Below, in pieces: positions 1,968 to 36,774 of a stretch of 46,179 nt of DNA; the first letter of the stretch is position 1, and each line of letters starts with the position of its first letter. Origin of the DNA: Peptococcaceae bacterium (GTDB lineage: Bacteria; Bacillota; Desulfitobacteriia; Desulfitobacteriales; Syntrophobotulaceae); NCBI GenBank assembly GCA_012517475.1, contig JAAYUV010000006.1, positions 1 through 46,179 on the forward strand. The letters are read 5' to 3'. A program made the position numbers and the translations under genes. A model generated the notes under the pieces. It saw only the letters and a list, made by a program, of their open reading frames with translations. It was not told where the DNA came from and did no database searches.

Positions 1968-2169
1968 CTTTCATCCACCATTCTTATGTAATAATATCTT
2001 CTACTTTTCATTTTACAATTAGACCTAGTAAGCTGGAAAGAGAAACCGCTGGCATAGCATTTACAATTACACCATTAATATCTGGGATGTTTACCCCTAT
2101 CCCTTCAATTCCCAAAATAATCGCATAACCCCTTAAGAAATTCTGATTGTTCTTCTTTGCTAAATACTA

Positions 2170-2273
2170 ACGCAATGTCCTCTAACCGCTGCAAGCGGAG
2201 CACGGATTGCGAAGCGCGGCTGTTTGCGTCAGGAGGGCGCAATCTGCCGAAAAGCGGTTTGAGGACGTTGCGT
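2170..2273 (-). repeat. Covarying hairpin element A (short form)
   Basis: The left arm (2170-2190) and right arm (2253-2273) are complementary at 19 of 21 positions. Read on the minus strand, the interior is CCGCTTTTCGGCAGAT, then TGCGCCCTCCTGACGCAA, then AACAGCCGCGCTTCGCAA, ending in CCGCTTGCAGCGG. It matches element F at about 90 percent and the backbone of element E, although the outer arms differ from both. It lies between the 3' end of the DUF4349 gene and the 5' side of the thioesterase. Confidence 0.85.
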
Positions 2274-2361
2274 AAACTAAGCAAAAGAAAGCCGCCAACA
2301 CAACTGTCGGCGACTTTAAGAGTCAATTCTTCCATAAAATTTATACCAGCAAAACTGTTCC

Positions 2362-4154: not shown

Positions 4155-4258
4155 TCCCTGAGCCCCCTTAATCAGACATCACAATAAGACACTTCTCTTT
4201 TCATTTGTTATAGACGTAAAGATTATTCTTTATCTGACTCAAAGAAGGTAAAATAAAA

Positions 4259-4328
4259 GGGCTATTGCAAAATGACTAGTTTCCGTAATGTATTATGGAA
4301 ACCCTCTTAAGTAGTTTTGCAACAACCC
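4259..4328 (-). repeat. Covarying hairpin element B (arms only)
   Basis: This 70-bp imperfect palindrome runs from GGGCTATTGCAAAAT on the left to GTTTTGCAACAACCC on the right. Both arms match the arms of element C in inverted orientation: GACTAGTTTCCGTAATGTA on one side and TTGCAAAACTACTTAAG on the other. The interior of about 177 bp present in C is absent. On the minus strand the hairpin is followed by CCCTTTTATTTT, so it could terminate the chromate-transporter operon. Confidence 0.85.
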
Positions 4329-10865: not shown

Positions 10866-10901
10866 TACCAATACCCTAGTTATTTAAAATATGGTGAGGG
10901 G

Positions 10902-11150
10902 TTGTTGCAAAACTACTTAAGGAGGTTTCCATAATGTATAGCCGCTCTCGGCAGATCGTGAAGGCCACTAGCCTTCACGCATCCGTGGCGAGCCGCTTGT
11001 TGCCATCCATGGCATCGCGGCACTAGTCCATCCCGTGAAGGCTATCGAAAGCCTTCACGCGTCGAAACAGCCGCGCTCCGCATCGCGTTACGCATGCGTA
11101 ACGCGCTTGACGCTGTCTATACATTACGGAAACTAGTCGTTTTGCAACAG
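10902..11150 (+). repeat. Covarying hairpin element C (long form)
   Basis: The left arm (10902-10940) and right arm (11118-11150) pair as TTGCAAAAC...GTTTTGCAA, then GTTTCC with GGAAAC, then TAATGTATA with TATACATTA. The interior of about 177 bp contains CCGCTCTCGGCAGAT, GTTGCCATCCATGGCATC followed by GCGGCACTAG, and AACAGCCGCGCTCCGCATCG. It also contains several perfect hairpins: GTGAAGGC-CACTA-GCCTTCAC, GTGAAGGCT with AGCCTTCAC, and CGCGTTACGCATGCGTAACG. It lies between the convergent 3' ends of the PII and chemoreceptor genes and ends in CTTTTTGT, so it may also terminate. Confidence 0.87.
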
Positions 11151-11229
11151 CTTTTTGTAAAAAAAGAGAATGCCCCGGACTAATGGGACATCCCCTGGAA
11201 AAACATCTTGTTACCTTGACTCAAACCAA

Positions 11230-15164: not shown

Positions 15165-15189
15165 CAAAAAATAAAGCGCTTTTGTTTTT

Positions 15190-15265
15190 CCCTACGGTGG
15201 TACTAGCCACATCAGGTTCAAAGGGTTAAGAATACTTCTTTCTCAGCCTTACGGCACCCCCAAAG
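15190..15265 (-). promoter_or_regulatory. TPP riboswitch (THI box)
   Basis: Read on the minus strand, the region runs GGGGGTGCC, GGCTGAGA, ACCCTTTGAACCTGAT, GGCTAGTACC and CCGTAGGGAA. These are the highly conserved TPP aptamer elements in their order and spacing. It precedes thiC and an intrinsic terminator, so thiamine pyrophosphate should prematurely end thiC transcription. Confidence 0.96.
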
Positions 15266-15332
15266 ACTATTCAATTGGTTCAATTATAACACCATAAAAA
15301 GGAGGTGTAAATAAAATAATCCGAAGTTCTGT

Positions 15333-25968: not shown

Positions 25969-26194
25969 GATATTTGAGCAAATACCCGCTCACCACGCGC
26001 CGAAGACTGCTCTATGCCCTCCATGGCATCGCGGCATTAGGTCATCCGTGACCGTCAACCGTTGCGCATCTTAACGCTCATCAAGCTGCACTCGTAACGT
26101 TTCTCTGAGTCGCATATAATGTCGTCCTGACATATGCGACACTAGGCACATCCTGTGCCGTCGCCACGGTTCGCTCACTATTTGCTCAAATATC
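25969..26194 (+). repeat. Covarying hairpin element D (long form)
   Basis: The outer arm GATATTTGAGCAAATA (25969-25984) is perfectly complementary to TATTTGCTCAAATATC (26179-26194). Inside are two copies of the hairpin module: TGCCCTCCATGGCA then GCGGCATTAG and GGTCATCCGTGACC near 26013-26054; and a diverged copy near 26109-26160, with GTCGCATAT pairing to ATATGCGAC, then ACTAG and GGCACATCCTGTGCC. It lies between the deacetylase gene and the UxaA pair. Nothing coding is seen in 25942-26298. Confidence 0.83.
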
Positions 26195-26316
26195 TAAAAA
26201 TGAATGATAGAGCCCGGAAAAATTGCTGATTATTTTTTGCCTTTTGATTTACTGATGTTTTCCTTGTCCAAACGTGATATAGTATATAAATATATAACAT
26301 GGAGGAGGTAGAAACA

Positions 26317-26604
26317 GTGCAGAAACAAGCTGTTGTTATTAATCAGAAAGATAATGTGGCAACAGCCGTTCAGGACCTGACCGCCGGATCTGTCGTGAGC
26401 TTTTTTGTAGGTCAGGATGTTGAACAGCTGACTTTATGTGAATTCATTCCCTTTGGGCATAAATTTGCGCTGTGTGATATTGGCAAAGGCCAGGAAATTT
26501 TGAAATACGGTGAAAGCATCGGCAGTGCCCTGAAACCCATTCCTGAAGGAAGTCATGTACACGTTCATAATATGCAGAGCAACAGAGGACGCGGTGACCT
26601 GTAA
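26317..26604 (+). CDS. UxaA-family hydro-lyase, small SAF-domain subunit
   Basis: This protein of about 95 residues corresponds to the SAF domain of altronate dehydratase/sulfolactate sulfo-lyase (SuyA-like) enzymes: VVINQKDNVATAVQDLTAGS, the strand EFIPFGHKFAL, then KGQEILKYGESIGSALKPIP and GSHVHVHNM. The conserved GHKFAL and YGESIG motifs are present. It pairs with the large subunit 100 bp downstream; together they make the two-subunit form of a dehydratase that in other bacteria is one chain. The GTG at 26317 is preceded by GGAGGAGGT at the right distance, whereas the ATG at 26299 lies before that site and is rejected. Substrate (altronate, galactarate, sulfolactate or other hydroxy acid) is unresolved: no sugar-acid or sulfonate genes are adjacent. 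Confidence 0.82.
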   Translation: MQKQAVVINQKDNVATAVQDLTAGSVVSFFVGQDVEQLTLCEFIPFGHKFALCDIGKGQEILKYGESIGSALKPIPEGSHVHVHNMQSNRGRGDL

Positions 26605-26703
26605 CTCAGAGGGTGTATCCCATATCGGGGACATTCCCTCCTATAAAGGAATCCCAGTAATTCAAGGGGTATATCCCCATACCTATCAAGGAGGATAAAA
26701 CAG

Positions 26704-27861
26704 ATGAAATTTCAAGGATATTTGCGTCCCGACGGCAAAGTTGGTATCAGAAATTATCTGGCCGTTATTCCAACTTCAGTCTGTGCAGCTACCGTAGCCT
26801 TTCATATAGCTTCCCAGATTCCGCAGGCGGTTGCCCTGGCAAACCAGCACGGCTGCTGCCAGATTGGGGCAGACCATGAACAAACAGTCAATACCCTCAT
26901 CGGACTCGGAAAAAATCCCAATGTTGGGGCGGTTCTTGTTGTCGGTCTAGGCTGTGAAGGAGTGCCGATTGCCAAAGTCGCCGAGGAGATAGCCGTTTCC
27001 GGCAAGAGTGTTGAAACGATTGTCATCCAGGATTGCGGGGGAACCCTCAAAGCAACCGCCGAAGGAACAAGGATTGCAAGCAAAATGGCACGCGAGATCG
27101 CCCAATTGAAAACACAGGAATTCCCTGTCAGTGAATTAAGCCTGGGAGTTGAATGCGGCGGTTCCGATTTCACCTCCGGTCTGGCTTCCAACCCGGCTGT
27201 CGGATATGCCTCGGACCTCCTCGTCCAAGCGGGCGGAACTTCCATGCTGTCCGAAACTACAGAGTTTATCGGCGCTGAACATGTTTTGGCCAGAAGAGCG
27301 AAATCCCCCGAACTTGGCGAGAAAATCATTCAGTTTGTCCGGGATTGTGAACAAAGGGCAAAGCAGATGCATGTGGACATCCGGGGCAGTCAACCCACTC
27401 CCGGAAATATCCAGGGTGGTATCAGTTCTATCGAAGAAAAATCTTTAGGGTGCATTCATAAAGCCGGGCATTCCCCTATTCAAGGAGTTTTGGCCTATGG
27501 AGAAACCCCTCAAGGCAAAGGATTATTTGTTATGGATACCCCTGGTCAGGATGTCGAATCCATGACGGGTATGGCTGCAGGAGGAGTTACCGTGATGATC
27601 TTTACGACCGGCCGGGGAACTCCCACCGGTTTCCCCCTCGCCCCCGTAATTAAAATCACTGCCAATGCCGAAACCTATTCTAAAATGACGGATAATATTG
27701 ATGTTGACGCATCCGGCATCATTTCCGGGGAAAAATCAATTGAAGAAGTGGGAAAAGAAATCTTCCAGGAGATCCTGGAAGTGGCCAACGGGAAGATGAC
27801 GAAAGCTGAAAGCCTTGGTCACAGGGAATTTGGGATTTATAAGATTGCGCCTACTTTTTAG
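26704..27861 (+). CDS. UxaA-family hydro-lyase, large catalytic subunit
   Basis: This 385-residue protein matches the C-terminal domain of UxaA/GarD/SuyB. It opens FQGYLRPDGKVGIRNYLAVI, the family signature, and continues HGCCQIGADHEQTVNTLIGL, VVGLGCEGVP, VECGGSDFTSGLASNPAVGY and TGRGTPTGFPLAPVIKI. The Cys and His residues of these segments would hold the iron centre that removes water or sulfite from the substrate. Its ribosome site is AAGGAGG. The stop codon lies within a hairpin (27844-27868). The 99-bp gap after the small subunit contains a GGGGTATATCCCC palindrome. Co-expression with the small subunit is nearly certain; the reaction is not specified by sequence alone. Confidence 0.85.
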   Translation: MKFQGYLRPDGKVGIRNYLAVIPTSVCAATVAFHIASQIPQAVALANQHGCCQIGADHEQTVNTLIGLGKNPNVGAVLVVGLGCEGVPIAKVAEEIAVSGKSVETIVIQDCGGTLKATAEGTRIASKMAREIAQLKTQEFPVSELSLGVECGGSDFTSGLASNPAVGYASDLLVQAGGTSMLSETTEFIGAEHVLARRAKSPELGEKIIQFVRDCEQRAKQMHVDIRGSQPTPGNIQGGISSIEEKSLGCIHKAGHSPIQGVLAYGETPQGKGLFVMDTPGQDVESMTGMAAGGVTVMIFTTGRGTPTGFPLAPVIKITANAETYSKMTDNIDVDASGIISGEKSIEEVGKEIFQEILEVANGKMTKAESLGHREFGIYKIAPTF

Positions 27862-27868
27862 GCGCAAT
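27844..27868 (+). terminator. Hairpin overlapping the UxaA stop codon
   Basis: ATTGCGCCTA (27844-27853) pairs with TAGGCGCAAT (27859-27868), a 10-bp stem with a 5-base loop that contains the TAG stop. No T-tract follows. A second hairpin is found at 27917-27938. Confidence 0.5.
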
Positions 27869-27916
27869 GTACATTAGGGTAACAAGCAAACAAAGAGAAA
27901 ATAGACCATATGTATG

Positions 27917-27938
27917 GCTGCTGACATTAGTTAGCAGC
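27917..27938 (+). terminator. Second hairpin downstream of the UxaA operon
   Basis: GCTGCTGAC (27917-27925) pairs with GTTAGCAGC (27930-27938), with one G-U, around ATTA, and is followed by TAATACTTTTCC. It is a likely terminator placed just before element E. Confidence 0.5.
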
Positions 27939-27960
27939 TAATACTTTTCCCATGGGCTTA

Positions 27961-28166
27961 CGTACTGTACTCAAACCGCTTTTCGGCAGATAGGCAGTTT
28001 TTTGCCATCCTTGGCACCGCTGCACTAGGTCATCCGTTACCGTTGCGTCCTCCTGACGGGCGGCTCCTTGCCATCCATGGCATCGCCGCACTAGGCCATC
28101 CATGTCCGTCGTAACAGCCGTGCTTCGCAATCCATGCTCCGCTTGCAGCGGTTTGAGTACAGTACG
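27961..28166 (+). repeat. Covarying hairpin element E (long form with two modules)
   Basis: The 20-bp arm CGTACTGTACTCAAACCGCT (27961-27980) is perfectly complementary to the arm at 28147-28166. The backbone matches element A read on its minus strand (TTTTCGGCAGAT, TGCGTCCTCCTGACG, AACAGCCGTGCTTCGCAA, CCGCTTGCAGCGG). Inserted into it are two copies of the hairpin module: TTGCCATCCTTGGCACC then GCACTAGGTCATCCGTTACC, and TTGCCATCCATGGCATC then GCACTAGGCCATCCATGTCC. The rest of 27939-28351 is non-coding AT-rich DNA. Confidence 0.88.
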
Positions 28167-28351
28167 TTAATCATAAGCAATTAGGATACAAACCGTTTCG
28201 GTACTCTTACCCGATCATGAAGCCATCAAATAGAGAATACGAGATCTAAATCTCTTGACATTCCTAATTCCAAATGCGTTGCGTTTAAGAACTTTGATTT
28301 TATTGTTAACCCTGTATCCTTTCAAAAATCCGCTACATATATTACTCATAT

Positions 28352-30783: not shown

Positions 30784-30891
30784 GGCAATGCAATGTATAA
30801 ACCAGCGCAAGCGGAGCATGGAGTGCGCAGCGCGGCTGTTTGCGCCAAGGAGGGCGCAATCTGCCGAAAGCGGTTTATACATTGCATTGCC
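30784..30891 (-). repeat. Covarying hairpin element F (short form)
   Basis: The 20-bp arm GGCAATGCAATGTATAAACC (30784-30803) is perfectly complementary to the arm at 30872-30891. Read on the minus strand, the interior is CCGCTTTCGGCAGAT, TGCGCCCTCCTTGGCGCA, AACAGCCGCGCTGCGCAC and CATGCTCCGCTTGCGCT, about 90 percent identical to element A. The arms share only the innermost bases with A. An AACCTGGA-GAAA-TCCAGGTT hairpin follows at 30932-30951; the rest of 30900-31153 is AT-rich and otherwise unassigned. Confidence 0.87.
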
Positions 30892-36492: not shown

Positions 36493-36547
36493 CACGAAAA
36501 GCCATGTAATAAGGACAAACTTTTTCCTTATCGTTTTCCATGTTCCA

Positions 36548-36705
36548 GATAGCGCTTCACTCTGTAAAGAATGACAGTCTTATACCTGTTTAATATAAGA
36601 CCAGCTTAACCCCCGGCCTGACTTAAGCTTCGGCAGTTATCCCTTTCAGTAATCTTCTTCGATTGCCTTCTCCGAATACCTACTTTTGATAACCGCGCCT
36701 CTATC
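36548..36705 (-). promoter_or_regulatory. Lysine riboswitch (L box)
   Basis: On the minus strand the conserved aptamer parts appear in order: GATAGAGGCGCGG, AAAAGTAGG, CGGAGAAGG, GAAAGGGATAACTGCCGAAG, GGGTTAAGCTGG, ACTGTCA and GAAGCGCTATC. The ends close the P1 helix (GATAG with CTATC). It precedes lysA and a terminator, so lysine binding should reduce read-through. Confidence 0.93.
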
Positions 36706-36774
36706 CCCGCTATTGAATTATAGAAAAAATGTTACCACAATTTCATAGTGTTTACAACAGGTAAACCTTTACCA

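Follow-up and report, generated by a model that had tools for sequence, protein, structure and literature searches.

Several palindromic elements in the window, as the whole 46,179-nt stretch of DNA analysed is called here, carry inside them pairs of small hairpins with TCC loops. The question raised by this locus is what the double hairpin (the module, from here on) is: a signal acting in transcripts, a product of replication errors, a passenger of the elements around it, or a mobile unit in its own right.

Anatomy of the module

The module is a 51–52 nt unit in which an outer stem (stem 1) encloses hairpin 1 and is followed by the linker AYTA, hairpin 2 and the end GTCR, both hairpins having a TCC loop. 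In the consensus GCCGCTCCTTGCCATCCATGGCAYCGCGGCAYTAGGCCATCCATGGCCGTCR, derived from 18 copies of this genome, stem 1 reads GCCGC/GCGGC and encloses TGCCA-TCC-ATGGCA, and hairpin 2 is GGCCA-TCC-TGGCC, preceded by A-Y-T-A, the only four unpaired bases before it, and followed by GTCR. The stems are 5–6 bp long, with G as first base. Module boundaries are good to about 1 base, the net gain being 52 nt in element E and at L241, and 51 nt at L203 and L065. The TCC-loop hairpins are present where the earlier note placed them. The same note counted GCGGC as part of a constant linker between the hairpins; a linker outside the stems exists, and is A-Y-T-A, but GCGGC belongs to stem 1, as its 3' arm. Nor is it constant, since the versions GCGGC, GCTGC, GCCGC and GCGAC occur in the window and the 5' partner changes along with them.

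Modules of the window, and the elements which host or lack them, are as follows (R1, match of the module).

2157–2275, minus strand: element A, short version of E, no module (alignment with E)
10899–11156, plus strand: element C, nested, made up of an outer repeat GGGTTGTTGCAAAAC.., an inner palindromic element, a module and further palindromes
10992–11040, plus strand: module copy in element C (R1, 51.4 bits)
25969–26194, plus strand: element D, inverted-repeat host of D1 and D2 (inverted-repeat listing, sequence)
26006–26057, plus strand: module copy D1 (R1, 63.9 bits; alignment A1)
26109–26163, plus strand: module copy D2, diverged type (ssDNA fold z -5.45 for 26098–26164)
27960–28167, plus strand: element E, host of E1 and E2 (21-nt perfect terminal inverted repeat)
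27994–28045, plus strand: module copy E1 (R1, 65.3 bits; precise 52-nt insertion)
28060–28111, plus strand: module copy E2 (R1, 74.7 bits; second 52-nt insertion in E)
30784–30891, minus strand: element F, short version, no module (20-nt perfect terminal inverted repeat)

Copy D1 is made up of stem 1, hairpin 1 TGCCC-TCC-ATGGCA, ATTAG, hairpin 2 GGTCA-TCCG-TGACC and the end GTCA, and D2 of a long stem GTCGCATA..TATGCGAC with a GTCC loop, ACTAG, the hairpin GGCACA-TCC-TGTGCC and the end GTCG. E1 (stem GCAG[T]/GCTGC, end GTTG) and E2 (compensatory stem GCGGC/GCCGC, end GTCG) both feature hairpin 1, ACTAG and a hairpin 2 with one mismatch, the two mismatched stems being GGTCA/TTACC and GGCCA/TGTCC. 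Hairpin 2 of the module in element C is broken after ATCC by another palindrome (CGTGAAGGCTATCGAAAGCCTTCACG). The number of copies per element (two in D, one of them diverged, two in E, an interrupted one in C, none in A and F) agrees with the earlier count. Terminal inverted repeats are found in both D and E, and differ between the two. Both elements are intergenic and lie beside ordinary genes, which encode a polysaccharide deacetylase with a YkoP domain, a SAF-domain protein, an altronate dehydratase and an asparagine synthase.

Palindromes are layered at more places. The outer repeats of element C also form a 73-nt element without inner part at 4256–4328, and within 10899–11156 the inner element carries the module, the hairpin 2 of which carries the further palindrome. 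At L030, L033, L043 and L058, palindromes such as CGTGAAGGCTAT..AGCCTTCACG, CGTTACGCATGCGTAACG and CGAAAACTATAGTTTTCG lie within or right at TCC loops, both of modules and of host elements. Further palindromes are found within the module's own loops too, which would fit a preference of such sequences for insertion into hairpin loops.

Filled and empty sites

Between the repeat ends, element E measures 208 nt and the short A-type element 104 nt, a difference of twice 52 nt. Alignment with A, F and three more short copies places the two 52-nt stretches of E at two different points, E1 being a precise insertion relative to A, L013, L019 and L027. Since E amounts to a short element plus two 52-nt stretches, and module D2 is missing at the equivalent place of the related element L032, the module is a separate unit entering larger elements. 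The longer palindromic elements are a layer independent of it.

Empty sites were sought by searching joined flanks in relatives. At one site G002 and G017 are filled (TAGG-ACCGC...TC(G/A)-TTTGACAGG, 52 nt) and G012 and G023 empty (TAGG-TTTGACAGG), with flanks 98% alike. The YpsA/SLOG-family gene of G007 contains a module as an in-frame insert of 17 codons (L203 1501-1549; G007:C1:1041340-1041388), missing in G021 and in this genome (G000); its linker is ATTCG, not ATTAG, and avoids a stop codon. In G000 a stretch of 51 nt splits an IS transposase gene, as comparison with G021 shows; the infC leader is filled in G000 and empty in G001, and a further site pair (CTCCTTTTT-..-TGCCG) distinguishes G012 from G010. 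No target-site duplication is found in the best site pairs (L241, L203). The left target is not strictly defined, two clean cases having TAGG and CTGG there; left flanks end in TC or TT in 35 of 71 copies outside recognised inverted-repeat elements, a set which still includes some copies from such elements.

Copies reside in intergenic DNA, for instance before infC and a DegT-like gene, in genes, and in larger inverted-repeat elements. Where copies stand in tandem the period is 51, and one site holds a single module in G012 and two in G002 and G023. Three identical modules of G264 have different left flanks, one of them differing in both flanks. G017 has one new insert of 69 nt, at the start of which 15 nt of the module's end are repeated. 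At some sites the differences resemble deletions between direct repeats of 9–17 nt; the direct repeats at L155 and L157, at first considered as long target duplications, are better read as partial neighbouring modules plus a deletion.

The precise insertions in E, together with clean filled and empty pairs without target duplication, make the module a non-autonomous mobile element which nests in larger ones. The expansion and contraction of module number supposed earlier is thus borne out by E, which is A plus two insertions, by the site with one or two modules, and by the empty sites in relatives.

Linked change of linker and end

The linker pyrimidine (Y) and the terminal purine (R) change together. 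The count took in 121 distinct copies whose linker has Y and whose fourth base after hairpin 2 is a purine. They comprise 71 T-A, 42 C-G, 6 T-G and 2 C-A; the matched types ATTAG...GTCA and ACTAG...GTCG total 113, the unmatched ones 8 (Fisher p 1.5e-23, without correction for relatedness). With copies in inverted-repeat elements set aside, T-A has 39, C-G 35, T-G 5 and C-A 1. The association is partly inherited along lineages, the counts being made without tree correction. As descent from only two lineages could give the same pattern, near-identical copies were compared. Pairs with at most two other differences comprise 19 in which both bases had changed and 6 with a change in one; among disjoint nearest pairs both positions had changed in 33 cases versus one position in 8. 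That the two bases so repeatedly change together suggests a direct contact between them, and the covariation supports a predicted single base pair between guide and end; the other guide positions hardly vary.

YTAG lies at the 5' foot of hairpin 2, GTCR on its 3' side. In IS200/IS605 and REP systems the cleavage site is chosen through its complementarity to a tetranucleotide found 5' of a hairpin (PMC8266576), and the module has what appears, by analogy, to be the same guide geometry.

Stem covariation and folding

In the 18 copies of this genome, the 15 stem positions form standard pairs in 94.8% of cases, versus 87.3% in shuffles, and pairs changed on both sides number 7 versus 2.1; neither value was reached in any of 500 shuffles, and slid versions of the 15 pairs gave far lower pairing. 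Hairpin 2 had been among the criteria for choosing this set; a second test therefore used copies selected on the sequence of hairpin 1 and linker alone. All five pairs of hairpin 2 are formed in 32 of 67 distinct sequences (9.9 with right halves re-dealt), and at least four of the five pairs of stem 1 in 25 of 45 (9.5 expected). Mismatches are hence below chance level in both selections, and the folded nucleic acid envisaged in the earlier note finds support in stem covariation. The z-scores for folding of single copies are modest (-1.4 to -5.5 as DNA), and the case for folding is therefore carried by the comparative evidence. Among 113 unique modules 131 cells are changed on both sides, and G-T (33) and A-C (34) cells are equally rare; these modules were found with a model including the structure, which biases the pairing rate upward and affects the G-T/A-C comparison less.

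Double changes without wobble intermediates would also be left behind if no enzyme were at work, and replication slippage with template switching perfected imperfect hairpins and duplicated them locally. Tandem copies, the change in copy number at one site, and the deletions between direct repeats are all consistent with such a process. Slippage does not, however, carry a complete unit with constant ends to unrelated sites, and gives no account of the coupling of linker and end, the two bases not lying opposite each other in a palindrome; as an explanation for the module it is unlikely.

The three stems also fold as RNA, and many copies are intergenic, as those before infC and the DegT-like gene, both features being expected of a processing, stability or attenuation signal maintained by selection in transcripts and multiplied by ordinary duplication. 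G-U pairs should be favoured in an RNA under selection, but not necessarily in a DNA hairpin or palindrome; the missing G-U preference speaks against maintenance of the structure mainly at the RNA level. Copies moreover lie within genes and within other mobile elements, and orthologous sites lack them. At gathering score no Rfam family covers the modules, so that in the search of the window the module corresponds to no known RNA family, and a structured RNA seems rather improbable. The window gives only two ordinary regulatory RNAs, a lysine riboswitch (36542–36711, minus strand, 113 bits) and a TPP riboswitch (15172–15271, minus strand, 76 bits).

Distribution

A covariance model of the module has 78 matches in this genome. 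Of the class, 82 genomes were scanned and 47 gave matches, all 47 belonging to two of the sampled families; the complete genome G012 has 39, G002 has 29, G017 and G023 about 30 to 37. Copies were also found in 4 of 299 genomes of a phylum-wide sample, all from one other family, and a scan of genome contigs yielded matches only in Gracilibacter sp. BRH_c7a and one Clostridiaceae MAG. Phages and plasmids were discarded as carriers, one exact pattern having no match in IMG/VR and one 51-mer each none in phages and plasmids. The orientation of copies in G002 is not biased with respect to replication (17 vs. 12, with the origin assumed at 1 and the terminus at the middle). Many contigs of this genome (C5, C9, C11, C52, C74, C95, C108) end in or beside these elements; assembly breaks are therefore probably due to the repeat, and the copy numbers are minimum values. 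A variant found in another family of the order (L087-L092, L095-L097) features ATCAG before hairpin 2 and AAGTCC after it, sits within larger GC-rich inverted repeats, and does not follow the Y-R rule.

Copy number is in part explained by the host elements. Inverted-repeat (MITE-like) elements contain 49 of 134 distinct copies, as counted by a simple filter which undercounts, and in some element families one and the same module recurs many times, as would be the case were the module a mere passenger multiplied along with them by their DDE transposases. Yet many distinct copies reside outside such elements, clean empty sites lack the module only, and the module entered the existing element E twice, at different points. 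Passive carriage is contradicted as sole explanation, and is in that form quite improbable.

Search for a mobilising enzyme

A transposase of the Y1 type, resident in the same genome, had been named as a possible partner of the module. This genome encodes a Y1 protein of 270 aa (C44:50807-51136). PF01797 (Y1_Tnp) is absent from seven carriers (G012, G017, G023, G007, G008, G001, G003) and none of the Y1 genes examined has a module nearby, presence/absence and flank searches thus ruling out a Y1 transposase as obligatory partner. Y2_Tnp is absent from the Dehalobacter-like genomes G002, G012, G017 and G023, and the Y1 and Y2 genes examined have no modules at their ends. Mobilisation is not the work of a resident Y1 or Y2 gene in every carrier.

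IS91-like elements also insert without target duplication, and modules lie in or beside IS91-type transposase genes in G264 and G211, but mobilisation by such a Y2 rolling-circle transposase is very improbable, given that intact IS91-type copies of carriers have no module at their ends and Y2_Tnp is missing in the four genomes just named; the association looks like the outcome of modules inserted into IS91 genes. Where modules occupy such positions in genomes of another family (L304-L306, L308), the IS91-type transposase genes may be a vehicle between lineages.

The best explanation, to which we give about even credence, is by analogy a two-hairpin, REP-like mobile ssDNA element, end-guided and cut in trans by an HUH-type nuclease. 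In single-stranded DNA, YTAG at the 5' foot of hairpin 2 would be in contact, across the base of the hairpin, with the GTCR end, and would in this way fix the cleavage point for the nuclease, as in IS200/IS605 and TnpA-REP systems. The target would be a similar sequence on the left, often TTC, TTT or GTC, and the module's own GTC end may therefore invite tandem insertion. The HUH-type enzyme may have been present earlier or be transiently supplied, or another activity may do the work. More doubtful, at best a tentative proposal, is that modules represent a new superfamily of self-addressed two-hairpin miniature DNA elements, moved without a known HUH transposase; guide-directed cutting and joining of ssDNA would then be done by an undescribed enzyme or a host repair route.

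Comparison with known repeats

An end-guided, REP-like element has its closest terms of comparison in the IS200/IS605 family and in REPs. IS200/IS605 elements have two subterminal hairpins and insert without target duplication. The module likewise has two hairpins, and the site pairs L241 and L203 show insertion without target-site duplication. In IS200/IS605 elements and their non-autonomous derivatives, too, a guide tetranucleotide 5' of a hairpin contacts the cleavage site (PMC8266576). The module differs in having no transposase gene, in measuring 52 nt in all, and in its hairpins being four bases apart; no parent IS200/IS605 element was found for it.

GTAG REPs and REPINs, mobilised by RAYT/TnpA-REP, are likewise small palindromic repeats, found in tens of copies and mostly extragenic, and share with the module an unpaired N-T-A-G before the hairpin and a ssDNA logic, in which the motif helps to choose the cut (PMC3733652, PMC3116915, PMC8266576). 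The module in contrast consists of two different hairpins in a fixed 52-nt unit, with YTAG for GTAG (the motif at the 5' foot of the hairpin is TTAG or CTAG), has a fixed GTCR end covarying with the motif, forms head-to-tail tandems, and occurs in Bacillota with no associated RAYT gene. No RAYT gene flanked by repeats was found among the Y1 genes fetched, several rich carriers being without PF01797.

With CGTC REPs, including dRS3 and RPE-4/RPE-6, the module shares the CGTC tag, the occasional in-frame insertion into genes, and the lack of a known dedicated transposase (PMC3733652). Published CGTC families are single hairpins of 8–9 bp, with stems starting with AT and mostly a CCA tail, and are found mainly in alphaproteobacteria (PMC3733652). 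The CGTC of the module comes after the second hairpin, and neither the AT start nor the CCA tail is present. Membership, as defined by a CGTC tag, an AT-starting stem of 8–9 bp, a loop of 4–5 nt and a CCA tail, was rejected on stem and tail.

The module is not a MITE, as it has neither terminal inverted repeats nor target-site duplications; inverted repeats are found in the host elements. The double-hairpin elements of fungal and cryptophyte mitochondria, as far as their description goes, are short mobile repeats with two hairpins, resembling the module in name and shape and residing in a different kind of genome. No paper describing the module was found in the open literature searched, most subscription papers being out of reach. 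By analogy, the module would work like REPs and IS200/IS605 derivatives, and it falls within neither the GTAG nor the CGTC definition of REPs.

Significance

Small elements nesting in hairpins of larger ones explain the layered palindromes at many contig ends of this genome. The spread of REP-like repeats without a transposase, as CGTC REPs, is an open question (PMC3733652). The module family provides natural compensatory data on the contact between a motif 5' of a hairpin and the end of the element; with these data, and with clean empty sites in sequenced relatives, the choice of the cleavage site is directly testable with 52-nt oligonucleotides.
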